A stretch of 36,836 bases of DNA from Noviherbaspirillum denitrificans. GTDB taxonomy: Bacteria; Pseudomonadota; Gammaproteobacteria; Burkholderiales; Burkholderiaceae_D. Positions 2,627-29,065 of this stretch are shown in pieces. The stretch's first letter is position 1, and every line of letters starts with the position of its first letter. The translations under genes and the position numbers were made by a program. Under the pieces are notes generated by a model. The model was not told the DNA's origin. It worked only from the letters and a program-made list of their open reading frames with translations, and ran no database searches. The DNA is taken from NCBI RefSeq assembly GCF_002211445.1, contig NZ_LSTO01000001.1:3086024-3122859 (forward strand), read 5' to 3'.

Positions 2627-2653
2627 TTAACGGCCAGTTTTCCGATTACTTTA
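2627..2653 (-). promoter_or_regulatory. sigma-28 (FliA) promoter for the GT41-like gene
   Basis: Read on the minus strand the elements are TAAAGTAA (2653-2646), an 11-base spacer, and GCCGTTAA (2634-2627). Against the enterobacterial consensus TAAAGTTT-N11-GCCGATAA this is 6/8 and 7/8 with exact spacing. Transcription would start near 2620, about 35 bases before the ATG at 2585. The last A of the -10 element is the first base of the upstream in-frame ATG. Confidence 0.75.
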
Positions 2654-2692
2654 GGCCCGTTCTTTTCTTTTTTCGATATTGCCGCCAAACAC

Positions 2693-2719
2693 TAAAGATT
2701 TTCCGTTTCATTCCGAAGA
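2693..2719 (+). promoter_or_regulatory. possible second, weaker sigma-28 promoter upstream of fliC
   Basis: TAAAGATT (2693-2700) matches the -35 consensus at 7/8, and 11 bases later TCCGAAGA (2712-2719) matches the -10 at only 5/8. It sits about 80 bases upstream of the better fliC promoter. It may be a degenerate or chance match. Confidence 0.25.
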
Positions 2720-2776
2720 AACAGGCATCCCGCTTGATTTAAAACGGGGTCAGAAAAAATAAATCAGCAAACGGCC

Positions 2777-2803
2777 TCAACTTTTTCCAGACCCGTCCGA
2801 TAA
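2777..2803 (+). promoter_or_regulatory. sigma-28 (FliA) promoter and leader of fliC
   Basis: TCAACTTT (2777-2784), an 11-base spacer and TCCGATAA (2796-2803, 7/8 to consensus) form a class III flagellar promoter. The start point would be near 2810, giving a leader of about 77 bases. The leader begins with the short inverted repeat ACAAC-G-GTTGT (2812-2822) and ends with a strong Shine-Dalgarno, AAAAGGAG (2874-2881), six bases before the fliC ATG. The remainder of the 2586-2776 interval holds only the divergent promoter elements. Confidence 0.75.
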
Positions 2804-2887: not shown

Positions 2888-4954
2888 ATGTCCTCGATGA
2901 TCAACACAAACCTGGCGTCCCTGAACGCGCAGCGTAACCTGTCCTCGTCTTCCTCGTCGTTGACCACGGCATTGCAGCGTTTGTCCTCCGGTCTGCGCAT
3001 CAACAGCGCAAAGGACGATGCAGCCGGTCTGGCGATTTCCCAGCGTATGACCGCCCAGGTTGGCGGCCTGAACCAAGCAGCACGTAACGCGAACGACGCG
3101 ATCTCCCTGGCCCAGACGGCTGAAGGCGCGCTGTCCGGCATGAGCGACAACCTGCAGCGTCTGCGTACCCTGGCAGTCCAGGCAGCAAACTCCACCAACA
3201 GCGATTCCGACCGCGCAACGATCCAGGCTGAAGTTTCCGCGCTGGTCTCCGAAATCGGCCGCGTTGCTGAAACCACCGAATTCAACGGCATCAAGCTGCT
3301 CAACGGCTCGTTCGCCAACCAGGCATTCCAGGTCGGCGCCAACTCCAACCAGACGATTTCCGTCTCGATGGACAGCGCACAAACCACCAAGCTGGGCAGC
3401 ACCCAGGTGGCATCGCTGACCGCAGCCAATAACGGTACCGCACTCGGCACCGGCGACCTGGTCATCAACGGCGTGGCAGTCGGTTCCTCCTCGTCCGCCA
3501 GCGATACGGCTTCCAACGCGGCCAAGAGCTCCAGCGCGATCGCCAAGGCAGCTGCAATCAATGCGGTTTCCTCGCAAACCGGCGTCAGCGCATCGGTCAA
3601 TGAAAACGTGGTCGGCGGTACCAGCATGACTGCTGCCGCACTGGCCGGCACGCTCACCATCAACGGCGTCGCGACGGGCACCATCACCACGAACGCGGCC
3701 GACAGCACCGCGACCATCCGTGCAAACGTGATCAACGCGATCAACCTGATTTCCGGCCAGACCGGTGTGAAGGCTAGCGACGGTGGCAGCACCGAGGCCG
3801 GCATCACCCTGACTGCCGCTGACGGCCGCAATATCTCCGTCTCGTCGGCAGCGCTGACCGCCGCGGGTACCGGCGTGACATTTACTTCCGCCTCCACCAA
3901 CCTGGGCTTCGGCACCTTCAGCCTGACCTCGAGCAAGGCCATCGTCATCACCGGCACCTCTACCGGCCTGGCCAATGCAGGCGTGAAGGCTGGCACCTTC
4001 GCGACGCAAACGGCAACCACCTCCACGGTTTCCTCGACCGCTACCGCTACGGCGTTTGCAACGGGTGACTTCCGACTCAACGGCATCATCGTCGGCGCCA
4101 GCCTTGCTGCCAGCGACACCTCTTCGTCGTCGGGCAACGCTGCCAGCTCCATCGCCAAGGTTGCGGCTATCAATGCGGTGTCGTCCCAGACCGGCGTGAC
4201 CGCTACCGTCGATGCCAACACCTCCGATGGTTCGGCGATGACTGCGGCTTCTGTTACCGGCACCTTCCTGATCAACGGTATCGCCACCGGCAGCATCACG
4301 ACCAACGCTTCCGACAACACCGCATCCCGCGCCGCAGTAATCGCAGGTATCAACGCGATCTCGGGCCAGACCGGCGTGCAGGCAGTGGACGGTGGTTCCT
4401 CGGCATCCGGCGTCCTCCTGGTTGCCGCTGACGGCCGCAACATCTCTGTCTCCTCGGCTGCCCTTACCGCGGCTGCATCCGGTGTCACGTTCACCTCCGG
4501 TAACGGCGCCGGCGGCAAGTACGGCACCTTTACCCTGAGCTCCGCCAAGACCTTCACGGTGTCGGCAGGCACCACCGGCGCAACGATGTCGACCATCGGC
4601 ATGTCGGCTGTCGGTACCTACGGCGCAGGCAAGAGCGGCCAGTCCCTGGCAACCATCGACGTGTCGACGGCAGCAGGTGCGAACAACGCGATCATCGCAA
4701 TCGACAACGCGATCTCGACGCTCAACACCAGCCGTGCGAACCTCGGTGCGATCCAGAACCGGTTCACGTCGACGATCTCCACGCTGCAATCGACGTCGGA
4801 AAACCTGACCGCCGCACGCAGCCGGATCACCGACGCAGACTTCGCGGCTGAAACCGCGAACCTGACCCGCGGCCAGATCCTGCAGCAAGCTGGTACGGCA
4901 ATGCTGGCCCAGGCAAACGGTCTGCCGAACGGCGTGCTGGCCCTGCTCCGCTAA
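2888..4954 (+). CDS. fliC: flagellin FliC with duplicated variable domain
   Basis: This is the filament subunit, 688 residues, long for a betaproteobacterial flagellin (often 280-500). The conserved D0/D1 N-terminus covers roughly residues 1-175 with MSSMINTNLASLNAQ and RLSSGLRINSAKDD. Residues 30-51 match the flg22 peptide of Pseudomonas aeruginosa at 18 of 22 positions by my count. The C-terminal D1/D0 helices occupy about residues 595-688 (SRITDADFAAETANLTRG, ending LALLR). Between them lie two tandem copies of a unit of about 204 residues. The variable region is very rich in Ser, Thr, Ala and Gly and has no Cys, giving many potential O-glycosylation sites. The start is fixed by AAAAGGAG six bases upstream. 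A sigma-28 promoter precedes it and a strong terminator follows. The neighbouring GT41-like, nonulosonate and CDP-sugar genes suggest it is glycosylated. Confidence 0.97.
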   Translation: MSSMINTNLASLNAQRNLSSSSSSLTTALQRLSSGLRINSAKDDAAGLAISQRMTAQVGGLNQAARNANDAISLAQTAEGALSGMSDNLQRLRTLAVQAANSTNSDSDRATIQAEVSALVSEIGRVAETTEFNGIKLLNGSFANQAFQVGANSNQTISVSMDSAQTTKLGSTQVASLTAANNGTALGTGDLVINGVAVGSSSSASDTASNAAKSSSAIAKAAAINAVSSQTGVSASVNENVVGGTSMTAAALAGTLTINGVATGTITTNAADSTATIRANVINAINLISGQTGVKASDGGSTEAGITLTAADGRNISVSSAALTAAGTGVTFTSASTNLGFGTFSLTSSKAIVITGTSTGLANAGVKAGTFATQTATTSTVSSTATATAFATGDFRLNGIIVGASLAASDTSSSSGNAASSIAKVAAINAVSSQTGVTATVDANTSDGSAMTAASVTGTFLINGIATGSITTNASDNTASRAAVIAGINAISGQTGVQAVDGGSSASGVLLVAADGRNISVSSAALTAAASGVTFTSGNGAGGKYGTFTLSSAKTFTVSAGTTGATMSTIGMSAVGTYGAGKSGQSLATIDVSTAAGANNAIIAIDNAISTLNTSRANLGAIQNRFTSTISTLQSTSENLTAARSRITDADFAAETANLTRGQILQQAGTAMLAQANGLPNGVLALLR
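3452..4630 (+). repeat. fliC: tandem duplication encoding the flagellin variable domain
   Basis: Two copies of a unit of about 612 bases are in frame. Matched landmarks are GDLVINGVAVG (residue 189) with GDFRLNGIIVG (393), AAINAVSSQTGV in both, GTLTINGVATGTITTNA with GTFLINGIATGSITTNA, and DGRNISVSSAALTAA identical in both (the nucleotides at about 3821 and 4430 are offset by 609). The copies have diverged at protein level, so the duplication is not very recent. Each copy itself contains two INGVA-type motifs, the flagellin_IN pattern. Confidence 0.85.
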
Positions 4955-8523: not shown

Positions 8524-10239
8524 ATGCCTGTCGACAACTCCGTATTCGCACGCAATCAACGCGCGCTCGATCTCTTCGATCCCCGCACTGCAGCCTGCAT
8601 TGCACGTATTTCCTCCCTGCCCGCAACTGGCGTTCGTCCGACGGTACGGCAAAGCGCCTGGTCTCCACCGGAACTGAAACCCGAGGACACCGTGATCCTG
8701 CAGGGGATCGGTGACGGCGCTGAAATCCTGCGGTTGCTGGCGCAGCCTTTCTCGCGCATCCTCGTCGTGGAATGCGACAGGGCGGCGTGCATTTCAGTCC
8801 TGCACCACAATGACTTCTCGACCGCACTGGCTGAGGGCCGCTTGCGCCTGTTCCTGGTGCCGGCGGACTCGCCTGTTACGCGCGAGATCTCGCTGAGGGA
8901 ATGCACCTCCGAACTGGTCGCATGCCTGCACGGCCGCAACGGCACGCTGCACTTCGTTGCCACTGCCACCACGCCCGCGCGCAGTGAATTCTTTGATGCC
9001 CTACGCAGAGGCGTGCAGGAAGCTGCACGTACCATCGGAGAACTGACCAGGGCACGTGCCAGCACCGCCGCCTACGATGTCACTGTGATCAGCCCGTGCT
9101 GCGCGATCTTCGACGACCTGGCGCGTTGCTTCCACAACCTGGGATTGAGGATCCAGTTACTGCGCGTGCCGGACAACCAGGGCACATGGACCAGCGAGCA
9201 GCTTCGGAACGTTCGATCCACCCTGGCAAGCGCGCCCAGCCGCCTCGTCGTCACGCGTAATCGCGCGCTGTTCGAAACGGAGGAACCGACTGGCTATCCG
9301 CAGCCGGAAGCGCTGGTTCCCGGCCACGTGGCAATGTGGTGGTGGGACGTGCCCAATCTCGCCACCTACATCGACCTCCGCCATCCCCGCGGCAACACCC
9401 GCGCCTTCGGCTTTGCACGGGACATCCTGCCCTTGCTTCCCCAGGGCGCCGAGTGGCTGCCTCCCGGCGCGCGCATGGCATTTGTCGAAGCCGGGACGCA
9501 GCCGGAAATCGCGCAGGACATCGACGTATCCTTTGTCGGCCAAAGCCGGCTGCAGAACCTGCACGCCAATCTCCGCCACCTTGGCAAGGTCTTGCACGAC
9601 CTTGGCGGCAATGCGCCTGCCCTGGCCAGGGACATCGAGCAATCCCGCGGGTATGTGTGGCTGCATGACTACCTGAAGCAGCACCACCGGGACATACAGG
9701 ACGCAATCGCGCCGATCGCGGCCGCCTATCCTGCGCACGCCTATTACCTGCACTATCTGCTGGAGATGGCCGTGAGCGGCTCCTTCAGGATTGCCGCCAT
9801 TGAAAAGGTGTCCGGCGAAGGCGTCGACGTTGCGATCTACGGCGACGATGACTGGCTCAAGGTTGCCGGCGTCAACGCGCGCAATTTCAAGGGCCTGATC
9901 GCCCCCGAAGACCTTCCCACGCTCTACCGGCGATCGCGGATCAACCTGAACCTGAACTTCATGCAGGTTTCGTCGACCGTCAATCCCAAGGTCCTGGATA
10001 TCGCCGCCACCGGCAGCGTTGTGCTGACCGATCATCGCCCGGAACTCGAACTGCTTTACAGCGACCCCGCTGCCCGCCCGTTCGCCTTCCATGGATTGCA
10101 TGAATTGTCCGGAAAGATCGACGCCCTCCGGCAAGCGGACCTGACGCACCACCGCAAAGCCGTGCTCATGCAAACCTGCCAGAACCATACCTTGCAGCAG
10201 CGGGCGCTTTGGCTCGCCCAACGTTTCGGCTTGCTATAA
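8524..10239 (+). CDS. Maf-like N-terminal region fused to CgeB-type glycosyltransferase
   Basis: The product has 571 residues. Residues about 5-150 resemble the N-terminal domain of Maf flagellin nonulosonate transferases: an early FARNQRALDLF segment, then TVILQGIGDGAEILRLL (56-72) and RILVVECDRAACISVLHHND (78-97), a Rossmann-like glycine-rich strand and acidic strand end. I do not see the central Maf catalytic domain. Residues about 184-540 instead form a GT-B fold of the CgeB/DUF3880 sort: IDVSFVGQSRL near 333, VAIYGDDDW near 436, and INLNLNFMQVSSTVNPKVLD followed by TGSVVLTD near 473-503. It starts 5 bases after fliT1, so it is probably co-expressed with the cap genes, and its end overlaps the end of the opposite-strand operon by 6 bases. 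A flagellin glycosyltransferase role is my inference; the domain assignment of the first part is moderate. Confidence 0.75.
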   Translation: MPVDNSVFARNQRALDLFDPRTAACIARISSLPATGVRPTVRQSAWSPPELKPEDTVILQGIGDGAEILRLLAQPFSRILVVECDRAACISVLHHNDFSTALAEGRLRLFLVPADSPVTREISLRECTSELVACLHGRNGTLHFVATATTPARSEFFDALRRGVQEAARTIGELTRARASTAAYDVTVISPCCAIFDDLARCFHNLGLRIQLLRVPDNQGTWTSEQLRNVRSTLASAPSRLVVTRNRALFETEEPTGYPQPEALVPGHVAMWWWDVPNLATYIDLRHPRGNTRAFGFARDILPLLPQGAEWLPPGARMAFVEAGTQPEIAQDIDVSFVGQSRLQNLHANLRHLGKVLHDLGGNAPALARDIEQSRGYVWLHDYLKQHHRDIQDAIAPIAAAYPAHAYYLHYLLEMAVSGSFRIAAIEKVSGEGVDVAIYGDDDWLKVAGVNARNFKGLIAPEDLPTLYRRSRINLNLNFMQVSSTVNPKVLDIAATGSVVLTDHRPELELLYSDPAARPFAFHGLHELSGKIDALRQADLTHHRKAVLMQTCQNHTLQQRALWLAQRFGLL

Positions 10240-11046
10240 GCGCCGCAAGTAGCCGTCGGGGGCGACCGTCAGCAGCAGCTTGTTTTCGATTGTCTTGTCG
10301 ATTTCAAGATCGAGCGATGCCCCGTCAGCGGCGACACGTCCCTCTTCCGTCAAGCGGCGCAAATATTCCCGGACGGCCGTCTTCGGATTGTCGCCGACGC
10401 CCCATGGACGATCAGGATATGAATCCTCCGGCAAATCCTCGATCACGGTATCAAAGACGCAGCAATAACTTCCCTTGCTGACCAGTGGCGCATAGGCTTC
10501 CAGTTCAGCCAGCACGTGCTCATGCGTGTGGTTGGAGTCAAGGCAAACCATGATGCGCTGGTAGCCCCTGGCGATTTCCCGCACCTTGCCGATGACTTCC
10601 GGCGCGACTGACGATCCCTGGATCATATCGATGCGATGCGCCATCGGATGCGCCTCAATGGCCGCACGATTATGCGCGCGAATATCGATGTCGAGCCCCA
10701 GCACGCGACGGCGCGGGTTGCGTGGATCAAGTATGGAGCCTGCCTCGACCGCATCGCAATAGTCGAGCATGGCGAGCATGGATGCGCTCAGGATCAGCGA
10801 TCCGCCATGGGCGATGCCGGTTTCCACGATCAGGTCCGGCCTGACCCGCCAGATCAGCTCCTGCATCGCCACCATGTCCTGCGGATACTGGATGATGGGC
10901 CGCGACAGCCATTCAAAGTTGTAGGAATACCCGGCGCGGATCGTCTCGTTAAGAAAGGCAACCGTGGATTGCTGCAAGGAGGCATTGCCTGCATTGCTGT
11001 CGATGCGCGCTTGCCTTTCCTGGCGAAATGCTTCTATCAGATTCAT
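10234..11046 (-). CDS. CmcI/rhamnosyl O-methyltransferase family protein
   Basis: This 270-residue SAM-dependent enzyme belongs to the cephalosporin hydroxylase (CmcI) family, whose sugar-acting members O-methylate deoxyhexoses. Visible motifs are DLIVETGIAHGGSL (residues 71-84, SAM-binding glycine-rich loop), VLGLDIDIRAHNR (115-127, acidic residue at the end of strand two), MIQGSS (141-146), and VCLDSNHTHEHVLAELEAYA (167-186) with the metal-binding-type Asp and His. It is the last gene of the long minus-strand operon, 2 bases after the preceding methyltransferase. The position next to CDP-sugar genes suggests O-methylation of that sugar. No terminator is visible past its end, where it overlaps the opposite gene by 6 bases. 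Confidence 0.85.
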   Translation of the reverse strand: MNLIEAFRQERQARIDSNAGNASLQQSTVAFLNETIRAGYSYNFEWLSRPIIQYPQDMVAMQELIWRVRPDLIVETGIAHGGSLILSASMLAMLDYCDAVEAGSILDPRNPRRRVLGLDIDIRAHNRAAIEAHPMAHRIDMIQGSSVAPEVIGKVREIARGYQRIMVCLDSNHTHEHVLAELEAYAPLVSKGSYCCVFDTVIEDLPEDSYPDRPWGVGDNPKTAVREYLRRLTEEGRVAADGASLDLEIDKTIENKLLLTVAPDGYLRRL

Positions 11047-11048
11047 GA

Positions 11049-12110
11049 TCAGGCCACCGATATCACGTTGACGTTAAATTCATTGAGCGACGCTTTGATT
11101 TCGTCGAGATACACCGGGTTCATGACGAAGACATCGGCATCGTTGAACCGCCCGGCGATCTCGTCCGGCGACAGGATCGGCAATCCGGTACCGCCCGCGA
11201 ATCGCCCCTGCTTGGCGGGATTGATATCCACCATGGCATCGACGTCGACGCCCTGCCTGGCAAGAAGGTTGGCAAAGGTGATGCCTTTTGCGCCCGCTCC
11301 CCAGATATAGGACTTTCCTCCGCCAGCCCGCCTGCGACGCAACAGGGATGCGAAATAGGCATCCATGCATATCTCCGCAAACCGCTTGCCCTGGTATGCA
11401 ACCGGCTTGCGGAAACTGGACAGGTCGGCAACCAGGTACAGGTATTGGCCTCCGAAGAAATGGCCGGACGCGATTACCGATCCGAATGCGCCGGCCAGTA
11501 CATCGCGCGTGAAGTAATTGACGTGTTCGTAGAACACATCGTAAAACGCCTGGTTGCTCACGATCCAGTCAAAGCACGGCACTTCGATATAGATCTTCGT
11601 CCCGGCCTTGCATTGCGCAGCGATCTGTTCAAGGAAGGCCCAGGGGGACGGAATGTGCTCCAGCACATGGCGCAGCACTACATAGTCTGGTGCAACGCTC
11701 AGCGCGTCCTTGCCGAAGTACTGCCGGACCACCCGCGGATTATTGCCTTCATACGCGGGATCGAAACCAATAACACTGGCGCCGGCCTTGTCCAGCATGT
11801 CGAAGAAATAGCCTTTGCCGCAACCGATTTCAACGCCCGACGCCTGCAGGCCGAAATGACGAAGGATAATTTCGAGCACCTCGTCCAGGTGTTGCTTGAA
11901 CGCGGGCGAACATGCCTGCTCGTTCTGGTAATCCGCATCATAGTCAAGCAGGCCGGGATTGAATTTCCGGTTGAACACCAGCCCCGACAGCCGACACTGC
12001 ACCAACTCCACATCACCGCAAACCGCAGCTTGTGCGGCCGCGCGCGTCGGATACACCTTGTTCTGGAAAACCGGCAGTCCGGGCTGCGAAAAGATGATCT
12101 CGTCATACAT
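11049..12110 (-). CDS. SAM-dependent methyltransferase with C-methyltransferase-type C-terminal domain
   Basis: The 353-residue protein starts at the ATG at 12110; the open frame runs further upstream to 12167 but would then run 65 bases into the preceding gene. A short N-terminal region (LVQCRLSGLVFNRKFNP) looks like the zinc-ribbon part of sugar methyltransferases with one Cys replaced. The class I methyltransferase core has GVEIGCGKGYFFDML near 91 and YVVLRHVLEHIPSPWAFL near 143. The last 90 residues (SYIWGAGAKG, MVDINPAKQGRFAGG) are the Rossmann-like C-terminal domain of C-methyltransferases. The substrate is unknown; it may act on the same CDP-sugar as its neighbours. It overlaps the upstream epimerase gene by 8 bases. 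Confidence 0.82.
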   Translation of the reverse strand: MYDEIIFSQPGLPVFQNKVYPTRAAAQAAVCGDVELVQCRLSGLVFNRKFNPGLLDYDADYQNEQACSPAFKQHLDEVLEIILRHFGLQASGVEIGCGKGYFFDMLDKAGASVIGFDPAYEGNNPRVVRQYFGKDALSVAPDYVVLRHVLEHIPSPWAFLEQIAAQCKAGTKIYIEVPCFDWIVSNQAFYDVFYEHVNYFTRDVLAGAFGSVIASGHFFGGQYLYLVADLSSFRKPVAYQGKRFAEICMDAYFASLLRRRRAGGGKSYIWGAGAKGITFANLLARQGVDVDAMVDINPAKQGRFAGGTGLPILSPDEIAGRFNDADVFVMNPVYLDEIKASLNEFNVNVISVA

Positions 12111-12951
12111 GCCCGCAAAACCTCCTGTACTTTTCCGTCCCGCCCCAGAACGCCATGGGTTCGTCATCGGCGTAAGGATAGTGGCCGAGATTCAGGGACA
12201 GGGTGGCGCCGCGTTGCGCAAGGTGCCGCTCCACCAGGTTGCGCACCGAAACAGGTTCACCGCTGCACACATTGACCACACCCGCGCACGCCGGGTGATC
12301 GGCCAGCGCAACCAGTCGCCGCGCCACCTCCTGCACCGGCAGGTAATCGCGCAATTGCTCGCCGCCCGACATGTTGAATTCCGGCTCGCCGCTGTCGATC
12401 GCGCGATCGAGTTGCGCGAGCAGGCTGTTTGGATTCTGGCCCGGGCCATACATGTAGAACAGGCGTGCCCATTGCAAGGTGAATGGGTATTGACCTTGAA
12501 AGTCCTGCAAAACCGTTCGCAGGCTGTCTTTGGCCTGCGCATACGCATTGGCCGGATACGTCGGCATCTCTTCTGTGAGACAGCCGCTTTGAAGACCGTA
12601 TTCGGCGCACGTCCCCGCCACGAGAAGCCGGCCTGTTACCTTCTTGATGAGTGAAGTCAGGAAACGGCAATCGCCCGGCAGATTTTCTTCAACATGAAAC
12701 GCCGCCTTGTAGTTCGGCAGGCCGGGCCATGCAAGGTGAACGACAATGTCCTGTGCACCGAACAGTTCCAGAGCGCGATCGTCCATCCGATGGATGTCGC
12801 ATGAAACGAACCTGACGCTGTCGAACCAAGCAAATCCGCGCGCCCGTTCCACGTCACGTCCAACCACCGCCACCTCATGGCCCCGTTCGAGCAACACAGG
12901 TACGAGATGCCGGCCGATGAAGCCGGTGGCGCCCGTCACCAGAACTTTCAT
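12103..12951 (-). CDS. NAD-dependent epimerase/dehydratase (extended SDR), probable 4-ketosugar reductase
   Basis: This is a 282-residue extended short-chain dehydrogenase. The NAD(P) loop GATGFIG is at residues 7-13, LLVAGTCAEYG at 109-119, and the catalytic Tyr137-xxx-Lys141 in AYAQAKDSL. RDYLPVQEVA in the C-terminal half is a typical substrate-domain motif. In NDP-deoxysugar pathways this class reduces the C4 ketone after epimerisation or C-methylation, which suits its place directly after the C-methyltransferase gene (ATGA overlap at 12948-12951). Direct evidence of stereochemistry or substrate is not in the sequence. Confidence 0.88.
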   Translation of the reverse strand: MKVLVTGATGFIGRHLVPVLLERGHEVAVVGRDVERARGFAWFDSVRFVSCDIHRMDDRALELFGAQDIVVHLAWPGLPNYKAAFHVEENLPGDCRFLTSLIKKVTGRLLVAGTCAEYGLQSGCLTEEMPTYPANAYAQAKDSLRTVLQDFQGQYPFTLQWARLFYMYGPGQNPNSLLAQLDRAIDSGEPEFNMSGGEQLRDYLPVQEVARRLVALADHPACAGVVNVCSGEPVSVRNLVERHLAQRGATLSLNLGHYPYADDEPMAFWGGTEKYRRFCGHV

Positions 12952-14174
12952 TCGATCTCTCGCAATTCAGGCACCGCGACGACAAACTTCCCGCCCCACT
13001 CCTTCACGAAACTTTGCTGGGCGATCAGCTCGGGGGCGATATTCCACGGCAGGATCAGCACTACGTCGGGACGCCTTTCGCGCAAGGCCGCCGGCGGCAG
13101 GACTGGAATGCGTGAACCGGGCAGGAATTTCCCCTGCTTGGACGGCGCGGCGTCGCATACATAGGAGACAAGGTCGCCTCGAATGCCGGCAAAATTGATC
13201 AAGGTATTTCCCTTGGCCGCAGCACCATAGGCAGCGACGGACTTGCCGGCACGTTTCTGCTCGATCAGGTAAGCCAGCAGCTTGTCCTTGACGCGCTCGG
13301 CACGCGACTGGAATTCCAGGTAAGTGCCGCGCTCACGCAATCCACGCCGCTTTTCTTCCTCGACCAAGACGGCGACTACGGGCAATGTTGGACGCGCGTC
13401 GTCCACATGACAGCCATAGATGCGCAAGCTGCCGCCATGCGTCGGCAATTCCTCGACATCCCATACGCGCAAACCGGCCTGCTCAAAAATTCGGCAAACT
13501 GTGTAGAGCGAGAGATAGGAAAAATGCTCGTGGTAGACGGTATCGAACTGCGTCTGTTCGATCAGGCGCATCAGGTGCGGGAATTCCAGCGTGATGGTGC
13601 CGCCCGGCTTCAATATCGCTTTCAATCCCGCTGTAAAGTCGTTGATGTCCGGTACGTGGGCATAGACGTTGTTGCCGACAACCAGGTCGGCCTGGCGGCC
13701 TGCGGCGGCCAGTTTCCGTGCCAGCGCAGTGCCGAAAAATTCGCGCAGCATCGGTATGCCGAGCTTCTCTGCCGCTGTGGCGGTTCCGTCCGTCGGTTCA
13801 ATGCCTAGGCAGGGAATGCCGGCAGCGACAAAATTCTTCAGCAGGTAACCGTCGTTGGCGGCGATTTCGATGACCAGGCTTTGCGCATCCAGAACCAGGC
13901 GCTTGCCGATGTCTTCCGCATAGCGCGCTGCATGCGCGAGCCAGCTGCTGGAGGTGGAGGAAAAGTAGGCGTAATCGGCGCTGAACAATGCATCGGCCCG
14001 GACATAATCCTCCGTCTGCACCAGCCAGCAATTTTCACAGGCCAGCAAGCGCAGGGGATACCACGACTCCGGAGCGTGCAATTGCGCTTCGCTCAAATAG
14101 GCATTGGATGGCGGAGCCGCGCCCAGGTCCAGGAAAGGAAGCGTCAACTCTGACTGGCAATGACGACACTTCAT
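12948..14174 (-). CDS. sugar C-methyltransferase (TylC3/NovU/TcaB9 type)
   Basis: The enzyme has 408 residues from the ATG at 14174; the frame is open 22 codons further but that would run through the end of rfbC-like. Three parts are visible. An N-terminal zinc-binding domain has Cys3, Cys6, Cys46 and Cys49. A SAM-binding core has LVIEIAANDGYLLKNF (100-115). The active-site segment YHEHFSYLS (214-222) matches the catalytic Glu-His and Tyr residues of TcaB9. The C-terminal domain has AAYGAAAKGNTLINFAG and SKQGKFLPG. Family members add a methyl to C3 of NDP-4-keto-6-deoxysugars. It overlaps the genes on both sides by ATGA, inside the CDP-sugar block, so the likely substrate is a CDP-4-keto-6-deoxyhexose. 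Confidence 0.9.
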   Translation of the reverse strand: MKCRHCQSELTLPFLDLGAAPPSNAYLSEAQLHAPESWYPLRLLACENCWLVQTEDYVRADALFSADYAYFSSTSSSWLAHAARYAEDIGKRLVLDAQSLVIEIAANDGYLLKNFVAAGIPCLGIEPTDGTATAAEKLGIPMLREFFGTALARKLAAAGRQADLVVGNNVYAHVPDINDFTAGLKAILKPGGTITLEFPHLMRLIEQTQFDTVYHEHFSYLSLYTVCRIFEQAGLRVWDVEELPTHGGSLRIYGCHVDDARPTLPVVAVLVEEEKRRGLRERGTYLEFQSRAERVKDKLLAYLIEQKRAGKSVAAYGAAAKGNTLINFAGIRGDLVSYVCDAAPSKQGKFLPGSRIPVLPPAALRERRPDVVLILPWNIAPELIAQQSFVKEWGGKFVVAVPELREIE

Positions 14175-14731
14175 ACGCGTACCCCATCGAACTTCCCGTC
14201 GACCCGCGATTGCGCGGCATCCTTTTCCGACAGTTCGCACACGGGCAGGGGCCAGTCGATTGCGAGTCTTTCATCCAGCGCATGCAGGCCGCGCTCGGCG
14301 TCCGGTGCATACGCGGCGGAATGGCAATAGAGCAGCTCGACATCATCGCTCAGCGCCTGGAAGCCGTGCGCAAATCCTTCAGGGATCAGCAAGGAACAAT
14401 GATTGTCCGCCGACAGCCGTTCCGCATGCCATTGCAGGAAGGTGGGCGAGCCGGCGCGCAGGTCGAGCGCCACATCCCAGATTTCACCGCGCAGGCAGGT
14501 CACCAGTTTCATCTCCGCATGCGGAGGCAATTGGTAATGCATGCCCCTGACCGTGCCCTGCCGCAGGGTGCACGTATGATTGATCTGCACGATCGGCTTG
14601 TCCCAGCCTGCCGCCAGAAGCGCGTCCGCGCAAAACAGGCGTGACAGGAATCCGCGTGAATCGGAAAACTGCTGGCGCTGGATCAACCTGAGACCGGCCA
14701 GCGGTGTTTCGGTGACGAGGAAGCGGCTCAT
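14171..14731 (-). CDS. rfbC: RmlC-like NDP-4-keto-6-deoxyhexose 3,5-epimerase
   Basis: This 186-residue cupin is of normal length for dTDP-4-dehydrorhamnose 3,5-epimerase-like enzymes. QFSDSRGFLSRLF near 21 is the start of the substrate pocket, GMHYQ holds the catalytic-type His65, and EMKLVTCLRGEIWDVALDLR contains Lys75 and Asp90. FAHGF follows near 120, and the tyrosine at 141 (AAYAP) is the candidate general acid. With rfbF and rfbG upstream the substrate should be CDP- rather than dTDP-activated, epimerised at C5, C3 or both. The name rfbC is by family and not by proven nucleotide specificity. Confidence 0.85.
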   Translation of the reverse strand: MSRFLVTETPLAGLRLIQRQQFSDSRGFLSRLFCADALLAAGWDKPIVQINHTCTLRQGTVRGMHYQLPPHAEMKLVTCLRGEIWDVALDLRAGSPTFLQWHAERLSADNHCSLLIPEGFAHGFQALSDDVELLYCHSAAYAPDAERGLHALDERLAIDWPLPVCELSEKDAAQSRVDGKFDGVRV

Positions 14732-15789
14732 GCCGGCGCCTCGTAATCGCGGATATCCGCCTCGCAGAGCGCCTTTGCATCGGCGCCCTCTGACAGGCTG
14801 CGATACCAGCGCATCGTGCGTCCTACGGCTTCCTGCAGCGTCCAGCGCGGCAACAGATTCAGTTGCTGCCGGGCCTTGGCGGTTTCGAGCGCAAGACAGC
14901 CGGCCTCATGCGGGCCGTCGGTGTTATCGCCCCAGATGACGTCCCCGTGCCCCAACGTCGCCCTCGCCATGTCGACGACGGTCCGGACCGTGGCGGTGTC
15001 ATTGCTCGCGGGCCCGAAATTCCATGCGCCGGAAAACGATGCGTCAGCCCACAAATGTTCCGCCAGTACGAGATAACCCGCGAGCGGCTCCAGCACGTGC
15101 TGCCATGGACGTGTGGCATTCGGTGAACGAATCGACAGTGACGCACCGGCATCCCATGCGCGTGCGGCATCCGGGATCAGGCGATCAGCGGACCAGTCGC
15201 CACCGCCGATCACATTCCCGGCCCTGGCCGTGGCCAGCGCCACGCCCTGCTGAGCCAGGTATGCATCGCGGTAACAGCGCGCCACCATTTCGGAAGCCGC
15301 CTTGCTGGCGCTGTACGGATCATGCCCGCCGAGCGTATCGTCCTCCCGGTACGGATACGGCCATTCACGATTGAGGTAAACCTTGTCGGTGGTCACCACC
15401 AAGGCGACTTTCACGCAATCAAGACCGCGCAATGCATCGAGCACATGCGCCGTACCCATCACGTTGGTGGAAAACGTATCCAGCGGCTGGCGATAGCCGG
15501 CGCGCACCAACGGCTGCGCTGCCAGGTGGAGCACGATATCGGGTTGAAATTCACGAATCAGCGTGCCGACGGCCGGATCGCGAATATCGCAGAAATGACT
15601 GTCCACCTCGTCGGCGACGCCGGCCAGTTTGAACAACGCCGGTGATGTGTCGGGTGGCAACGCGATGCCGCGCACCTCGGCACCCAGGCGCTTCAGCCAA
15701 AGCGCCAGCCAGCTGCCCTTGAAACCGGTATGCCCCGTCAGCACCACCCGCTTGCTGTGCCAGAATGCCGGTGACGGAAGCGCGGTCAT
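14728..15789 (-). CDS. rfbG: CDP-glucose 4,6-dehydratase
   Basis: RfbG converts CDP-glucose to CDP-4-keto-6-deoxyglucose with tightly bound NAD. The product has 353 residues from the ATG at 15789, which overlaps the rfbF stop (TAATG); the longer open frame back to 15942 lies inside rfbF and is rejected. TGHTGFKGSWL (residues 18-28) is the family-specific NAD loop. VVTTDKVY (131-138) and Tyr159-Ser-Ala-Ser-Lys163 give the dehydratase catalytic set, and ARAGNVIGGGDWS and RPWQHVLEPL are typical of RfbG. It ends in an ATGA overlap with the RmlC-like gene. Confidence 0.95.
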   Translation of the reverse strand: MTALPSPAFWHSKRVVLTGHTGFKGSWLALWLKRLGAEVRGIALPPDTSPALFKLAGVADEVDSHFCDIRDPAVGTLIREFQPDIVLHLAAQPLVRAGYRQPLDTFSTNVMGTAHVLDALRGLDCVKVALVVTTDKVYLNREWPYPYREDDTLGGHDPYSASKAASEMVARCYRDAYLAQQGVALATARAGNVIGGGDWSADRLIPDAARAWDAGASLSIRSPNATRPWQHVLEPLAGYLVLAEHLWADASFSGAWNFGPASNDTATVRTVVDMARATLGHGDVIWGDNTDGPHEAGCLALETAKARQQLNLLPRWTLQEAVGRTMRWYRSLSEGADAKALCEADIRDYEAPA

Positions 15790-16559
15790 TACCACACCTT
15801 CCACGGCGCCTTGCCGGATTGCCAAAGTGTCTCCAGCATGTTTTTTTCGCGCAAGGTGTCCATCGGCTGCCAGAAGCCCCTGTGCTCGAAAGCGTTCAGT
15901 TCGCCCTCGTTCGCGAGTCGCTCCAGGGGACGCAACTCCCATGCGGTATCGTCGCCGTCAATGTAGTCCAGCACCCTGGGCGACAGAACGAAAAAGCCGC
16001 CATTGATCAAGCCGCCGTCGCCGGGCGGCTTCTCGGCAAACCTGGTCACCCTTCCCTCTTCGACCTGTATCGCACCATAGCGTCCCGGCGGCTGCACCGC
16101 TGTCACCGTCGCCAGTTTGCCATGCGATCGATGGGAGGCGATCAAGGCTGACACATCCACATCCGCCACGCCGTCGCCGTAGGTAAAGCAGAATGCCTCC
16201 TCGTCGCGCACATAGTCCGCGATGCGCTTGAGCCGCCCTCCGGTCTGCGTGTCGGCACCGGTATCGACCAGCGTGACCCGCCAGGGCTCGGCGTGCTCCT
16301 CGTGGATCTCCATGCGATTGTGCTTCATGTCGAATGTCACATCCGACATGTGCAGGAAGTAATTGGCGAAGTACTCCTTGATGACGTAACCCTTGTAGCC
16401 GCAACAGATCACGAAGTCATTCACCCCGTGCGCCGAATAGATCTTGAGGATATGCCAGAGGATGGGCATGCCGCCGATCTCGATCATGGGCTTGGGGCGA
16501 AGATGGGACTCCTCGGAGATTCTCGTGCCAAACCCGCCGGCCAGGATGACTGCTTTCAT
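15789..16559 (-). CDS. rfbF: glucose-1-phosphate cytidylyltransferase
   Basis: RfbF makes CDP-glucose from CTP and glucose-1-phosphate, the first committed step of CDP-deoxysugar pathways. The 256-residue product has the nucleotidyltransferase start LAGGFGTRISEES (7-19), RPKPMIEIGG (21-30), the metal-binding-type YGDGVADVD near 126-134, and the C-terminal GFWQPMDTLREKNMLE characteristic of this family. It follows the TPR glycosyltransferase gene after 14 bases. Confidence 0.96.
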   Translation of the reverse strand: MKAVILAGGFGTRISEESHLRPKPMIEIGGMPILWHILKIYSAHGVNDFVICCGYKGYVIKEYFANYFLHMSDVTFDMKHNRMEIHEEHAEPWRVTLVDTGADTQTGGRLKRIADYVRDEEAFCFTYGDGVADVDVSALIASHRSHGKLATVTAVQPPGRYGAIQVEEGRVTRFAEKPPGDGGLINGGFFVLSPRVLDYIDGDDTAWELRPLERLANEGELNAFEHRGFWQPMDTLREKNMLETLWQSGKAPWKVW

Positions 16560-16573
16560 CGCTTCCTCGTTCC

Positions 16574-19570
16574 TTATGCGATTCCAAACCGCCTTTTGAT
16601 CAGCTCCATGCGCCTGTCGATTTCACCGCCGCCGAAGCCGAGCGCCTGGACCTCCTTCAGCACCGGAAGCGCCTCCTCGCCGGTAAAGAAGCTCGACAAT
16701 GCGCGCAGGTTTTCGCGCTGGGCCAGGATCATCGCGACGCTCCAGTCGGACTCGCGTCCAGCCGGCGATGCCGAGGCAAAGTGCGCCGACAGAGCCAGGC
16801 AGGGCTCGTCGAGCGAACGCACCATGCCCGAATTGAGCAGCGAGCAGATCTGGTTCAGCAAACTCACCGCCGCTTCCCGCCGGCCAAGGTCGGTCAGGGT
16901 TCGGACCAGGCTCAACAGCCTGGGCATGTTCGCGTGTTCCTGTATCAAGGTCGTCAATATGCTGCAGGAAGCCTGGAGGCTGGCATACCGTTCAGCGGCA
17001 GGACGCGCTTCCATCCTGGCCCTTGCAAACAGGTTCAAGGCCATCCAGTACACTTCCCAGCCGGGCGCTTTTGGCTGGGACGACAGCCAGCCATCCAGCA
17101 TGGGGGCGGCATAGGGAAGCGATCCCAGGTATTCCTGCCAGTACGTCAGTTCGATGCCGGGGAAATCATTCAACGCCTGAACCTGTCCAACCAGGATGCC
17201 CTGCTGCGCCAGCAATGCCGCCCGATCGTGCTTGCACGCAAAGATGTTCAACGCGTACACATCCAGTTCCTCGAATGCGGCAATTGGAACCAGCATGCCC
17301 AGCCCCGGCACCAGGCGGTAGAGGCCATAGCCACGCGCATTGAGCCATCCGCCGAGCGCACGGGCGGAGTCCCTGCCGGACTTGAGGCCCAGCATCAGCA
17401 AGGGCGAATTGATCGAGAAAAGTTGCGACCCGCTCGCCAACAGATCCACGCTGCAAATGTCAGCCGCGATGCGCATGAACCCAATATTGTCGAGGCCGTG
17501 CTTGTCCATTTCAGCATCAAGTGACAAGCCCTGGTCCGCAATCGCGATATTGATGCTCTTTTCCAGCGCATTGCGCGTGCGGGATTTCATCAGCAGGTTG
17601 GCATTTTCCGCACCATGCGTGAGCGCCAGCACCTGGCCGTTGCCGATGCGCCTCGCGAGCGGAATCGCGTATGCGCCGACACCCGCCCCCACATCCACCA
17701 CCTGCATGCCCGACGTCGCCACGCCCAGCACGAATGCATATTCGGCATCGAACCATCCGCCCTGCTCTTTCAGCACATAGGTAGGAAGATCGTCCAGCGA
17801 GCCGTTGACCGCGACGTCAACCTCGTGCGGAAGACGGACATACTCGACCTGTGTCGCGGTTCCCCGCACCTTCTCGCTCAGGGCTTCGGCGACCAGTGCG
17901 AGCGGCGTATCCCAGTCGCCCAGGGTCAATTGGCCGAACAGCCTCATCTTCGGATGCCACGGCGACCTGCCCGTGCCCAATGCATCCATTGGCTTGCCGA
18001 ACGGATCCAGGCGATAGGTCTCGACGCCGGCAGCGCCAGCCATTTCGCTCACCGCCGTACCAGCGGAGATCACCAGGTCAAGGGAGCAGATCAGCGCGGT
18101 CGTTTCGTCGAGCTCGTTCTTCATGTCCAGCTCGCGGAATGAGGTGATGGTCACCCCAAATTTTTCCTCGGCTGCGCGCAGTTCGTCCGAGCACTCGTCA
18201 TATTGCAGGTTAACGAAATGCACACCAGGAAGCTTGAATATTTGCCCCCATTGGGTCAGCTCAGAATAGTTCTTGTGCCGCTCGCCGACCACCAGTCCGC
18301 TTCGCCAGCAAATGCCGACCTTGACGCCGGGCCCCAACAGTGCCAGTCGGGAACGCCAGTATTCGATGCGCTGCGTGTCCGCATACAGGTACTGCGGCGT
18401 ATCGGGAAAGCTTTCCAGGGTCGGACGCAGGAAGCGCGGCATGCTGCCCATCGCGACCTGCACGTCGATCTTCGGCACATTGACGATCCATCCAATCTGC
18501 AAGCGGTCGCCGCCGACGACAGTGGCGGTGGGAAAAGACCGCGAAAACAGCGAGGCCAGGCGCGGCGTGCATTCGATGACAACATGCCCCGCCCTGGCAA
18601 TCAGGTCGGGAATACAGGAGGCAAACCAGATTTCGTCGCCCAAACCCTGTTCTGCATAGACGAGGATGGTCTTGCCTTCGAGCGAAGACCCGTCCCATCG
18701 GGGAAAAGGAAAGCGTTCCGATACCTGTCCGCCCGGGCCGAGCCGCAACTCATGCGCTTCCCAGCCACGATCGAGCACACCTTGGCGCAGGTAGAGATAC
18801 GAAGTATTCCACGCCGCGGTCGTATCCTCCGGACATAAGCGTGTAGCAATCTCGTATTCGGCAAGCGCCTCGTCGAAGCGTCCCAGTTCCTCCAAGGTTG
18901 TGCCACGATTGGTGTGCAGGTAGTGCGACTGCGGGGCAATTTTCAATCCACGTTCGAAACACGCAAGCGCCTGCTCAGTGCGCCCCCAACGCTTGTAGAT
19001 ACTGCCAAGGTCGCTATATGCTTCCGCCAGATCGGGCCTCAGTTCGAGCCCGCGGGTGATGTGTCGTGCTGCCTCCTCAAACTTGTCCTTGGCATACAGT
19101 ACAAGGCCCAGGTTGTAGTGGACATTGGCCATGTCGGGGTTCAGTGCCAATGCCCGCCGCAGGGGCGCTTCCGCCTCGTCGGGCTTTCCGTCGAATTCCA
19201 GCACGCTTCCCAGGTTGGACAGCGCATCCACGTAGTTGGGTTCAAGCTCCACTGCACGCCGGAAACACTTAGTGGACTCCGCCAGCTTTCTTTGTGCTTT
19301 CAATACGAGGCCCATGCTGTTGAGCGCCTGGACATGGTCGGGCGCGATCTTCAGTGCCCGCTCCAGGAACTTAGCCGCCTCGTCGATCTTGCCAAGCTGC
19401 GCGCATGCCGTTCCCAGCAGGTACAGCGTTTCCATGTCGTTCGGCGTCTCGCGCAATGCCTTGCGATAGAGTTCCTCGGCCTCTTTCACCTTGCCCGCGT
19501 TGTGCGCGATAAACGCCTTGTGAAACAGCGCGTCGGCCTTGGCCACCTTGTTTTTGTCCACGTAACTCAT
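16574..19570 (-). CDS. large TPR / glycosyltransferase / FkbM-like protein
   Basis: This 998-residue protein has at least four parts. Residues about 10-275 are seven or eight TPRs (for example YNLGLVLYAKDKFEEAARH). About 298-565 form a TPR-associated glycosyltransferase domain with a GT9-like fold: LVYAEQGLGDEIWFASCIPD (303-322), KVGICWRSG (417-425) and SLDLVISAGTAVSEMAGAAG (496-515). About 595-770 resemble an FkbM methyltransferase (QVVDVGAGVGAYAIPLARRI, 623-642), but the acidic residue expected after strand two is replaced (QVLALTHGAEN), so methyl transfer may be lost. The rest to 998 is helical with no family I recognise. I chose the ATG at 19570 because it overlaps the deacetylase stop as ATGA; the frame reads back to 19699 inside that gene. 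TPRs suggest a protein acceptor, plausibly flagellin. Confidence 0.85.
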   Translation of the reverse strand: MSYVDKNKVAKADALFHKAFIAHNAGKVKEAEELYRKALRETPNDMETLYLLGTACAQLGKIDEAAKFLERALKIAPDHVQALNSMGLVLKAQRKLAESTKCFRRAVELEPNYVDALSNLGSVLEFDGKPDEAEAPLRRALALNPDMANVHYNLGLVLYAKDKFEEAARHITRGLELRPDLAEAYSDLGSIYKRWGRTEQALACFERGLKIAPQSHYLHTNRGTTLEELGRFDEALAEYEIATRLCPEDTTAAWNTSYLYLRQGVLDRGWEAHELRLGPGGQVSERFPFPRWDGSSLEGKTILVYAEQGLGDEIWFASCIPDLIARAGHVVIECTPRLASLFSRSFPTATVVGGDRLQIGWIVNVPKIDVQVAMGSMPRFLRPTLESFPDTPQYLYADTQRIEYWRSRLALLGPGVKVGICWRSGLVVGERHKNYSELTQWGQIFKLPGVHFVNLQYDECSDELRAAEEKFGVTITSFRELDMKNELDETTALICSLDLVISAGTAVSEMAGAAGVETYRLDPFGKPMDALGTGRSPWHPKMRLFGQLTLGDWDTPLALVAEALSEKVRGTATQVEYVRLPHEVDVAVNGSLDDLPTYVLKEQGGWFDAEYAFVLGVATSGMQVVDVGAGVGAYAIPLARRIGNGQVLALTHGAENANLLMKSRTRNALEKSINIAIADQGLSLDAEMDKHGLDNIGFMRIAADICSVDLLASGSQLFSINSPLLMLGLKSGRDSARALGGWLNARGYGLYRLVPGLGMLVPIAAFEELDVYALNIFACKHDRAALLAQQGILVGQVQALNDFPGIELTYWQEYLGSLPYAAPMLDGWLSSQPKAPGWEVYWMALNLFARARMEARPAAERYASLQASCSILTTLIQEHANMPRLLSLVRTLTDLGRREAAVSLLNQICSLLNSGMVRSLDEPCLALSAHFASASPAGRESDWSVAMILAQRENLRALSSFFTGEEALPVLKEVQALGFGGGEIDRRMELIKRRFGIA

Positions 19571-20271
19571 GCTTTTCCCAAATGAACGATACGCCTGCCG
19601 AGCATGAATGCTTCGGCGGCTTCCACACCTGCGCTGGCGCCGCGCCACCTGGCCAGGCTCTCCAGCGCCCTGATCGAGCGCGCATGCGGCCATGGGCACA
19701 TTTCAGTGTCATAGCACGCCAATGCCTTCAACTTGAGATCGAGCGTGTCCGAAATATCGACGAACCAGTCCGGCGCGAAGAACGGCGCTGAAGATGGCGG
19801 CATCCATTCCGTGCTGGATGCCACTTCAAAAAACAGCAGGCTGTTGACCGGATGCCCCGGCTTGGGGCGGCAGGCCGTCAACACGCTTTCATGCACAATC
19901 CTGTGGTCGATATTGAGATCGCCGGCGTGATGCGTATAGACCACCTCAGGGACCACGCGCGCGATCTCCGCTTCAACGAGCTTGATGACGTCCAGCCGGT
20001 CCAGCGAATCCATGCGGTTGTCGGGCAGGCTGTGCAAGGTCACCGAGGCTGCACCCAGCAGCGCATTGGCCTTGCGCGCCACATCCGCCAGCTGTTCCAG
20101 GTCGGTCTTCTGCGCAGCGGCATCGCGCTGCAGACTGCGGCTGGTCAGGCCTTCCGCCATGATGACCACATGGACCTCATGCCCGGCACGTGCGTGCGCG
20201 GCGATCGTGCCGCCGCATCCCAGGATTTCATCGTCCGGATGGGCCGCCACTACGAGAATTTTTTTTGTCAT
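19567..20271 (-). CDS. PIG-L/LmbE family deacetylase
   Basis: The product is 234 residues of a zinc-dependent N-deacetylase fold. The signature AAHPDDEILGCGG (residues 9-21) supplies His11 and Asp14, and THHAGDLNIDHRIVHESV (113-130) supplies the second His/Asp group. Family members remove acetyl groups from GlcNAc-type substrates. Here it could remove an N-acetyl so that another acyl group is installed by the hexapeptide acyltransferase encoded nearby. That role is inference. It lies 35 bases after the upstream methyltransferase gene, one of the widest gaps in the operon. Confidence 0.88.
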   Translation of the reverse strand: MTKKILVVAAHPDDEILGCGGTIAAHARAGHEVHVVIMAEGLTSRSLQRDAAAQKTDLEQLADVARKANALLGAASVTLHSLPDNRMDSLDRLDVIKLVEAEIARVVPEVVYTHHAGDLNIDHRIVHESVLTACRPKPGHPVNSLLFFEVASSTEWMPPSSAPFFAPDWFVDISDTLDLKLKALACYDTEMCPWPHARSIRALESLARWRGASAGVEAAEAFMLGRRIVHLGKA

Positions 20272-22701: not shown

Positions 22702-23146
22702 TCTCGGACAGCTTCTGCGCGTAATACCCCGGTTTGACCGTCATCGGATTGCCAATTACCAGCGAATACGGGGGAATGGCTCCGGCTTCGACAATGGTGC
22801 CGGCAGCCACGACGGAATGGTGGCCGATATGGGCGCCGCCCTTGATGACGGAATGCGAACCGACAAAGACATTGTTTTCAAGGACGATATCGCGCCGGTC
22901 CACCTCTTTGGCCAAACCGATGCATTTCCTGTGCGAGTCGGCGCAATTGATCGAGACGAACGACGCGATATCGCAGTTGTCGCCAATGACGACCCGCGCG
23001 CCCTTGCCGTTCACTTCGGACATGCCGCCGATGTAGACATTGGCGCCAATTTCAGGATTGCCGACGATCCAGACCAGCGGATGGAAACGGTTCTTCGGAA
23101 AGGTCGTCAACTCCGCGAAGCGGGCTTCGAATTCTGACTTGTCCAT
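22688..23146 (-). CDS. left-handed beta-helix (hexapeptide) acyltransferase
   Basis: The product has 152 residues. Imperfect hexapeptide repeats run from about residue 30 to 135 (IGANVYIGGMSEVNGKGARV, VIGDNCDIASFVSINCADSH, IVLENNVFVGSHSVIKGGAH), with candidate catalytic histidines in the coils, and end with PPYSLVIGNPMTVKPGYY, the usual exit of this fold. Members acylate amino sugars using acyl-CoA. No GNAT-type PseH is present in the window, so this enzyme is the best candidate for the 4-N-acylation step, or it works with the neighbouring DegT aminotransferase. Start ATG 23146 overlaps the pseI stop by 1 base (TGATG). Confidence 0.87.
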   Translation of the reverse strand: MDKSEFEARFAELTTFPKNRFHPLVWIVGNPEIGANVYIGGMSEVNGKGARVVIGDNCDIASFVSINCADSHRKCIGLAKEVDRRDIVLENNVFVGSHSVIKGGAHIGHHSVVAAGTIVEAGAIPPYSLVIGNPMTVKPGYYAQKLSENDPA

Positions 23147-24198
23147 CAGTTGAAGTCTCCCAGTTCCAGCAGGCTGCCCTTGGCAATTTTCCTGGCCGCG
23201 ACACGTTGAAGCACCTTCTCGAACAGCGCGGGCGGCAGTCCGTTACCGGGACGGCGCAAGCCGATATTGCCTGCGTCCAGCACGGCACCCGGCTCGATAT
23301 CCTGCAGGGCGACAATACTGCGCCGCGCCAGCGTGCGCATCTCGCGCTCCGCAGTGGTCGGCCGCACCTGGGCAGAACCCATCATGATGTGCGCGGTGCG
23401 GATCGCCTTGATCCACTGCCCCGCACCATCCGGGTCTTCGGAGAACCAGTGGTCAGGCCCGGGCAGGTCGTGACTGAGGGTGAAATGCTTCTCGAATACT
23501 GTGGCGCCCATTGCCACCGCCAGCGAGGATGCCAGCGGTCCCTGGGTATGGTCGGAGAAGCCCATGACCACCGACGGGAAAGCCGCGGCCAGGGTACGCA
23601 GCTTGAGCAGGTTCACATCGGCCGGCGGCGTCGGATATTGCGACGTGCACAGGAACAGTACGGTCGGATGTCCATCCAGCGCGCCGACGGCTTCCAGCCC
23701 CTGGTGGACTTCGCCAAGATCGGACATGCCGCACGACACCAGCATCGGCAGCCCGGCACTGGCGTAATCGCGCAGCAGCGGGAGGTTCGTGAAGTCGTCG
23801 GAACCGACCTTGACGGCGGGTACGCCGAGTTCGAGCAGGAGGTCGAGGTCGGAGCGATTTTGCGGCGTGGACAGGAAGAGGATGCCGGTTTCATCGCAGC
23901 GACGCTTGATCGCCAGCCAGTCGCTGCGCGAAAACTCGTAACGCCGGAACATATCCAGCATCGATTCTGTGACTTCCTTGCCTTGCGAGCGGTAGGTGAA
24001 CATCAGCGTCGGGTCGCCCACGAATTCATCCGCCTTGAAGGTCTGGAACTTCACGGCATCCGCGCCGAGACGCTTCGCGACCGCGATCATCTCGAACGCC
24101 TTGTCGAGGTCGCCGTTATGGTTGATCCCCGATTCGAGAATCACAAGCGGAGGCTGGTCCTTGCCGACGAGTCGTTCACCGATCCTGATTTGCGTCAT
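23146..24198 (-). CDS. pseI: nonulosonate (pseudaminic/legionaminic-type) acid synthase
   Basis: The NeuB family condenses phosphoenolpyruvate with a six-carbon N-acyl sugar to form a nine-carbon sialic-acid-like sugar. The 350-residue product is of family length. VILESGINHNGDLDKAFEMI (18-37) and DAVKFQTFKADEF (47-59) are barrel motifs, PAVKVGSDDF and VFEKHFTLSHDLPGPDH hold conserved Lys, His and Asp residues, and the last 60 residues (SIVALQDIEPGAVLDAGNI) are an SAF antifreeze-like domain. The N-terminal motif also resembles LegI/NeuB proteins. The pseudaminic call rests on pseB, pseC, pseG and the Pse methylase in the same operon. Confidence 0.88.
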   Translation of the reverse strand: MTQIRIGERLVGKDQPPLVILESGINHNGDLDKAFEMIAVAKRLGADAVKFQTFKADEFVGDPTLMFTYRSQGKEVTESMLDMFRRYEFSRSDWLAIKRRCDETGILFLSTPQNRSDLDLLLELGVPAVKVGSDDFTNLPLLRDYASAGLPMLVSCGMSDLGEVHQGLEAVGALDGHPTVLFLCTSQYPTPPADVNLLKLRTLAAAFPSVVMGFSDHTQGPLASSLAVAMGATVFEKHFTLSHDLPGPDHWFSEDPDGAGQWIKAIRTAHIMMGSAQVRPTTAEREMRTLARRSIVALQDIEPGAVLDAGNIGLRRPGNGLPPALFEKVLQRVAARKIAKGSLLELGDFN

Positions 24199-24211
24199 GG
24201 TTTTACCTCTG

Positions 24212-25878: not shown

Positions 25879-25888
25879 TCCGCGCTCC

Positions 25889-26626: not shown

Positions 26627-29065
<2,439 letters not shown>

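Follow-up and report, generated by a model that had tools for sequence, protein, structure and literature searches.

A GT41 glycosyltransferase gene behind a recurrent leftward sigma-28-type promoter beside fliC in Noviherbaspirillum denitrificans

The flagellar gene cluster and its sugar genes

The window, the whole stretch of DNA analysed here, comprises 36,836 nucleotides of the Noviherbaspirillum denitrificans genome (G000:C1:3086024-3122859; 5.8 Mb in 49 contigs). It holds a flagellar cluster in the order GT41 glycosyltransferase gene (leftward), fliC, flaG, fliD, fliT, a transferase-like gene, and a leftward block of sugar genes, beyond which lie a second flaG-like gene (29066-29440, so named from a reading of its sequence), fliS (29569), fliT, and fliK, with fliF and fliG further on. 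The 688-aa flagellin encoded by fliC (2888-4954, + strand) carries the Pfam Flagellin_N and Flagellin_C domains. A run of N in the contig adjoins window position 1, and the upstream gene (2-919) is probably cut by the assembly gap.

The sugar genes form two sets, both on the - strand. The CDP-sugar set (10234-16559), the first genes of which stand directly behind a GT41 gene in relatives, includes genes for glucose-1-phosphate cytidylyltransferase (15789-16559) and CDP-glucose 4,6-dehydratase (14728-15942), both over the NCBIfam cut-offs, as well as a C-methyltransferase (12948-14240), an epimerase (12103-12951), and two methyltransferases (11049-12167 and 10234-11046). The pseudaminic-acid-type set (23146-28775) encodes PseB, PseC, PseG, and a Pse-associated methylase, all over NCBIfam cut-offs, along with a NeuB/PseI-like synthase and a CMP-type transferase that fall below them. 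Further candidate transferases are encoded at 8524-10239. With transferases and sugar genes lying inside the flagellar cluster, the region has the make-up of a flagellin glycosylation island. The homology of PseB begins at residue 85 (ATG 28775), and the listed open reading frame probably starts too far upstream; a start at 28775 leaves a divergent intergenic region (28775-29027) that contains the sigma-28-type site of the second flaG-like gene.

Sigma-28-type sites between the GT41 gene and fliC

The sigma-28 consensus is TAAAGTTT-N11-GCCGATAA. Facing the GT41 gene, a site on the - strand from 2653 to 2627 reads TAAAGTAA-TCGGAAAACTG-GCCGTTAA (-35 box at 2653-2646, -10 box at 2634-2627), and facing fliC, a proximal site on the + strand at 2777-2803 reads TCAACTTT-TTCCAGACCCG-TCCGATAA; both match the consensus at 13 of 16 bases, and both spacers are exactly 11 bases long. 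A distal fliC site, TAAAGATT-N11-TCCGAAGA (2693-2719, + strand), precedes the proximal one by 84 bases and had been overlooked in the first-pass annotation. Five sites of at least 13/16 occur in the window at a spacing of 11, against one in total at spacings of 8-10 and 12-15, and all five such sites found at spacing 11 in the 240 kb around the window fall inside it. One of the five, at 21169 inside a gene on the opposite strand, is probably due to chance.

For scoring, a matrix was built from the 15 Escherichia coli FliA sites tabulated in PMC4183435, not all of which are accompanied by FliA-dependent expression in the tabulated material. Across the 479,946 positions of the 240 kb, the five best scores all lie in the window: the promoter-like sites of fliS (29469-29495, + strand, 25.0 bits) and of the second flaG-like gene (28947-28973, + strand, 22.6 bits) are followed by the fliC proximal site (19.6 bits), the GT41-facing site in fourth place (18.6 bits), and the fliC distal site in fifth (16.3 bits), while the sixth-best position reaches 15.97 bits. 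Simulated sequence yielded 0.4 matches per Mb per strand at the score of the GT41-facing site (2 in 5 Mb). A 14-base consensus with at most one mismatch found five sites in the 5.8-Mb genome, two of them in the window (the GT41-facing and fliS sites); the fliC site is absent from these matches. At up to two mismatches a reversed control pattern gave 46 matches genome-wide against 14 for the real pattern. The consensus count was therefore dropped as proof of the sites, and the case rests on matrix rank and conservation.

The sites in the gap thus have the boxes and spacing of sigma-28 promoters, and the genome encodes FliA (283.8 bits, over the cut-off), about 117 kb from the window. No sigma-70-like promoter, terminator, or Rfam match was found in 2560-2900 of the window. 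The first-pass annotation had proposed sigma-28 elements on both strands with an exact 11-base spacing; third and fourth ranks among 479,946 positions confirm the proposal and make the back-to-back arrangement more significant than that annotation could show.

Translation start of the GT41 gene

The GT41 gene (930-2585, - strand) is read here as encoding a 551-aa protein that likely begins at ATG 2585, rather than the 565-aa protein obtained from the ATG at 2627. The additional 14 codons (2586-2627) overlap the leftward -10 box, which runs into the ATG at 2627, and are probably leader and promoter rather than protein. With the standard spacing from a -10 box, the leftward mRNA would start near 2620, past that ATG, and an equivalent ATG is present in only one of eight aligned leftward promoters. 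Among the 27 distinct N-terminal matches listed, nine start at residues 14-17 of the 565-aa reading and have a shared EIxAL-type motif, three more carry the motif but start earlier, at residues 1, 3, and 11; the remainder are shifted repeat matches. The predicted mRNA start, the N-terminal matches, and the rarity of the upstream ATG together make 2585 the likely start, as had been suggested previously, with the three earlier-starting matches counting against it. The ribosome binding site before 2585, read by eye, is weak.

The leftward site in relatives

Regions upstream of fliC were collected from 60 family genomes outside the genus, 14 other members of the genus, 10 GT41-bearing relatives, and the window (85 in all); one region with only 290 bases upstream (L106) was left out, giving 84. 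A flagellin match is present in 157 of 195 family genomes. The fliC promoter itself recurs: 47 of the 84 regions have a site of at least 14 bits between -140 and -80 of the gene, and 18 have tandem sites spaced by 80-87 bases, both of at least 14 bits. The tandem sites are mostly 82-84 bases apart, or about eight helical turns (the window, L067, L105, L108-L110, L112-L114, and L116).

Leftward sites were sought from about -150 to -627 of fliC. A score of 15 bits or more was reached in 7 of 14 regions of the genus and in 7 of the 70 outside it, against 2 of 840 shuffled sequences. When eight leftward sites are aligned, each of the 11 invariant columns lies in one of the two boxes or is the C before the -35 box. 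In six members of the genus with a site of at least 12/16 (G162, G197, G195, G115, G196, and G081), the site is directed into the 3′ end of an upstream gene that has the same orientation as fliC; in G058 and L162 the site stands ahead of a divergent repeat-rich open reading frame. No conserved small open reading frame or protein was seen by eye behind the site in relatives. Leftward sigma-28-type sites upstream of fliC in L116 and L162 precede large divergent repeat open reading frames with STAQIAAL-like units. Another leftward site, TCAASTTT-N11-GCCGATTG, lies at about -283 from fliC in L126, L146, and L181 and recurs in genera g23 and g30.

The closest comparison is provided by G162, the nearest genome sampled by flagellin (89% identity in the N-terminal part). 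It has a leftward site of 20.4 bits, shares the upstream gene of the window at 53% identity, and has no GT41 match in its genome at E<=1e-30. The leftward site is likewise present in G197, whose 4.5-kb contig carries no GT41, and the contig of G173 ends too early to reveal the site. A FliC/FliD tree, which reflects flagellar genes alone and intermixes other genera with the genus, separates the window genome and G162 from all others with 98% support and groups these two with G173 and G197 at 88%.

Where a GT41 gene is divergent from fliC, the leftward site reaches 15 bits in 1 of 14 regions, which is the window, and the next best score is 12.6. In a listing of sites of at least 12/16 over 700 bases, the divergent-GT41 loci other than the window show only single 12s, at -142 (L067) and -114 (L182), and the divergent-GT41 genus members G151 and G184 lack the leftward site. 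The site was accordingly rejected as a marker of GT41 genes, and sigma-28 control is not a general rule among GT41s linked to fliC. Since G162 and other relatives have the promoter but no divergent gene, and since it falls below 15 bits in 13 of the 14 divergent-GT41 regions, it is not there because of the GT41 gene or dedicated to it, and to conclude from the promoter that the enzyme is a dedicated flagellin modifier goes too far. On balance, the leftward site appears to be a long-standing element of fliC control that was reused by the GT41 gene. The simplest history would be the gain of a GT41 gene behind a standing promoter, that is, capture rather than loss.

The GT41 enzyme

The protein consists of TPR repeats followed by a GT41 catalytic domain (Pfam PF13844) and is the only PF13844 protein found in the genome. 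Its closest solved structure is the plant O-fucosyltransferase SPINDLY (8dtf; E 1e-99, best stretch of 495 residues), followed by 5djs, and it shares with SPINDLY the architecture of TPR repeats and GT41 domain. In SPINDLY, mutation of K665 abolished activity and Y744 is important for fucose transfer, according to the portion of the study drawn on here (PMC9715652). The window enzyme differs at both positions, with Arg371 aligned to K665 and His446 to Y744, as well as at N661 (Thr) and S496 (Ala), while the equivalent of H495 is kept in the alignment as read by eye. The enzyme belongs to GT41 by sequence, but the changes at K665 and Y744 keep it from being classed as a SPINDLY-type fucosyltransferase. 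Its earlier description as O-GlcNAc-transferase-like is doubtful, given that the closest solved relative is an O-fucosyltransferase, that two donor-site residues are changed, and that many related GT41s adjoin CDP-sugar genes.

Typing by the residues at the K665 and Y744 positions covered the GT41s of 63 loci, which had been selected for their similarity to the query. The Arg/His pair occurs at 16 loci, 12 of which are divergent to fliC within 8 kb (genera g1, g32, and g4), with one more on a stretch with flagellar genes and three on fetched stretches without any. Of the 50 locus entries of the Lys type, 6 are divergent to fliC, 13 have some flagellar genes on the stretch, and 31 have none; one locus has another residue. 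The 18 entries with a GT41 divergent to fliC are therefore made up of 12 Arg/His and 6 Lys types, which describes a pattern rather than a measured rate, as the Arg/His loci were taken from among the top matches to the query and a single genus supplied 8 of the 12 that are divergent to fliC. Very long open reading frames with several GT41 modules in a row are present at L067 (7700-13530), L009 (1773-8948), and L068, and an open frame of 2100 aa in G151 holds three GT41 matches.

The likely sugar donor

A glucose-1-phosphate cytidylyltransferase gene follows a GT41 match on the same strand, at a distance of 6-60 bases, in at least 21 of the 195 family genomes, as judged from distances measured for 30 GT41 places picked among the matches listed. 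In the window the GT41 gene is 15.6 kb from the CDP-sugar genes, which lie beyond fliC. The position directly before the cytidylyltransferase gene, held by GT41 in relatives, is occupied in the window by the gene for a 1041-aa TPR protein (16574-19699) with a weak methyltransferase-like match. The adjoining GT41s, at least 21 in number, include 12 of the Arg/His type, 3 of the Lys type (G128, G100, and G111), and 6 untyped, so that adjacency to CDP-sugar genes is not special to the Arg/His pair. Genes for both the cytidylyltransferase and the dehydratase are found on the stretch at 15 of the 16 Arg/His loci (all but L068) and on four Lys-type stretches (L080, L081, L084, and L232).

Within the genus, the cytidylyltransferase is over its cut-off in the window genome, G151, G184, G100, and G128 and below it in G141, and G162, G173, G081, G115, G058, and G023 have no match at E<=1e-40. 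Among these last six, GT41s of the Lys type are found in G115 and G023 and untyped GT41s in G173, G081, and G058; G162 lacks a GT41 match. PseG is over its cut-off in G162, the genome without a GT41, and not in G151 or G184, and the surroundings of the other Arg/His loci yielded nothing beyond PseC-like matches of 30-32% identity, at 4 of 15 loci. These observations weaken CMP-pseudaminic acid as the donor of the GT41, although that pathway is also present in the cluster, and association favours a CDP-sugar instead. A CDP-activated sugar is not known to serve as donor for a GT41 enzyme.

A proposed explanation and its alternatives

The arrangement can be explained as follows. Within the 260-base gap that separates the GT41 gene from fliC there would be three FliA (sigma-28) promoters: a tandem pair serving fliC and a single leftward one facing the GT41 gene, the latter being an older part of the fliC control region. 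The GT41 gene, which in the closest relatives directly precedes CDP-sugar genes, lies here behind that promoter, and because of this position FliA would turn on flagellin and the GT41 together. Translated from 2585, the GT41 would most likely glycosylate flagellin in the cytoplasm, ahead of export, and the sugar is probably a CDP-activated 6-deoxy sugar. Points against this account are the other candidate transferases and the pseudaminic acid pathway of the cluster, the six Lys-type loci that are likewise divergent to fliC, and the lack of the leftward site in G151 and G184. We regard the account as a whole as somewhat more probable than not. The first-pass annotation had gone from late-class control to the conclusion that the GT41 is made together with flagellin and modifies it; joint expression is plausible, with sites facing both genes and FliA encoded, but co-expression is no proof of the target. 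The likely choice of flagellin is suggested instead by the recurring place of such genes beside fliC.

A mere chance likeness of the leftward site to sigma-28 boxes could be argued from the reversed control pattern that outnumbers the real one at up to two mismatches, but it is highly improbable for a site that ranks fourth among 479,946 positions with an independent matrix and has its boxes conserved in relatives. Accepting the site as real, one could hold that it serves an antisense or short non-coding RNA, or the regulation of fliC, and that the GT41 gene is simply downstream and perhaps transcribed mainly from elsewhere. Its pointing into the 3′ end of a co-directional gene in six g1 relatives would fit this, as would the many intragenic sites bound by FliA in E. 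coli, two of which yield small or antisense RNAs in the data drawn from PMC4183435. The window site is nevertheless well placed for the GT41 gene, with a predicted start about 35 bases before ATG 2585; the absence of a sigma-70-like site or (in the window) an Rfam match from 2560-2900, and of a conserved small open reading frame by eye in relatives, also speaks against such a role, which we consider unlikely.

The history could also have run the other way, with the GT41 gene and promoter both ancestral and the gene lost from G162 and others, leaving the promoter behind. GT41 genes divergent from fliC in several genera agree with this order of events; however, no other GT41-bearing region has a leftward site that reaches 15 bits, and the six genus members without a cytidylyltransferase match would imply repeated double loss, making ancestry an improbable alternative. 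As for the substrate, an enzyme that modifies a protein other than flagellin would fit the three Arg/His loci, out of 16, whose fetched sequence shows no flagellin: L009 (an entire contig of 12.6 kb), L010 (14.2 kb), and L068, which starts at a contig end. Against the divergence from fliC of 12 of the 16, and the position of the sole PF13844 protein found in the genome inside the flagellar cluster, a different target seems quite unlikely.

Capture of the leftward promoter by the GT41 gene, if correct, would show how an enzyme can acquire the expression timing of the protein it modifies by coming under a promoter already in place. The findings would also draw attention to GT41s in which the active site is altered and the donor is likely new. 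A bolder version can be entertained tentatively, although we lean against it: Arg/His GT41s would be flagellin-dedicated transferases using a CDP-activated 6-deoxy (possibly C-branched) sugar, and the one in this lineage would have been brought under late flagellar control by an orphan FliA promoter, kept beside fliC in the genus for another purpose. The orphan leftward FliA promoter beside fliC, which reaches 15 bits in half of the 14 genus regions, is a question of its own.

Comparison with known systems

FliA control of a GT41, or a GT41 using a CDP-sugar, was not found in the titles and abstract openings of the open-access literature matches listed. The intragenic FliA sites of E. coli, as far as covered in the account used (PMC4183435), resemble the leftward site in having no evident target gene, but the site described here lies beside fliC and recurs through the genus. 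Caulobacter FlmG, in the material available from PMC7591256, demonstrates that a cytoplasmic TPR transferase can act on flagellin, to which its TPR part binds. The window GT41 resembles FlmG in domain layout, both combining TPR repeats with a transferase; FlmG uses pseudaminic acid and is controlled by CtrA, whereas the window GT41 has a FliA-type site and probably uses a CDP-sugar.

SPINDLY-type GT41s are also part of the flagellin glycosylation islands of Enterobacteriaceae, one type of which contains CDP-4-keto-6-deoxyglucose genes, according to the part of the island survey considered (PMC4875605). The Arg/His pair is without mention in that part of the account. The islands are similar to the window in bringing together a GT41, a flagellin locus, and, in that one type, genes for a CDP-sugar. 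They differ in being inserted between fliC and fliA and in that most of their GT41s carry methyltransferase domains (PMC4875605, same part), whereas in the window the GT41 gene is divergent from fliC, behind a sigma-28-type site, and apart from the CDP-sugar genes.
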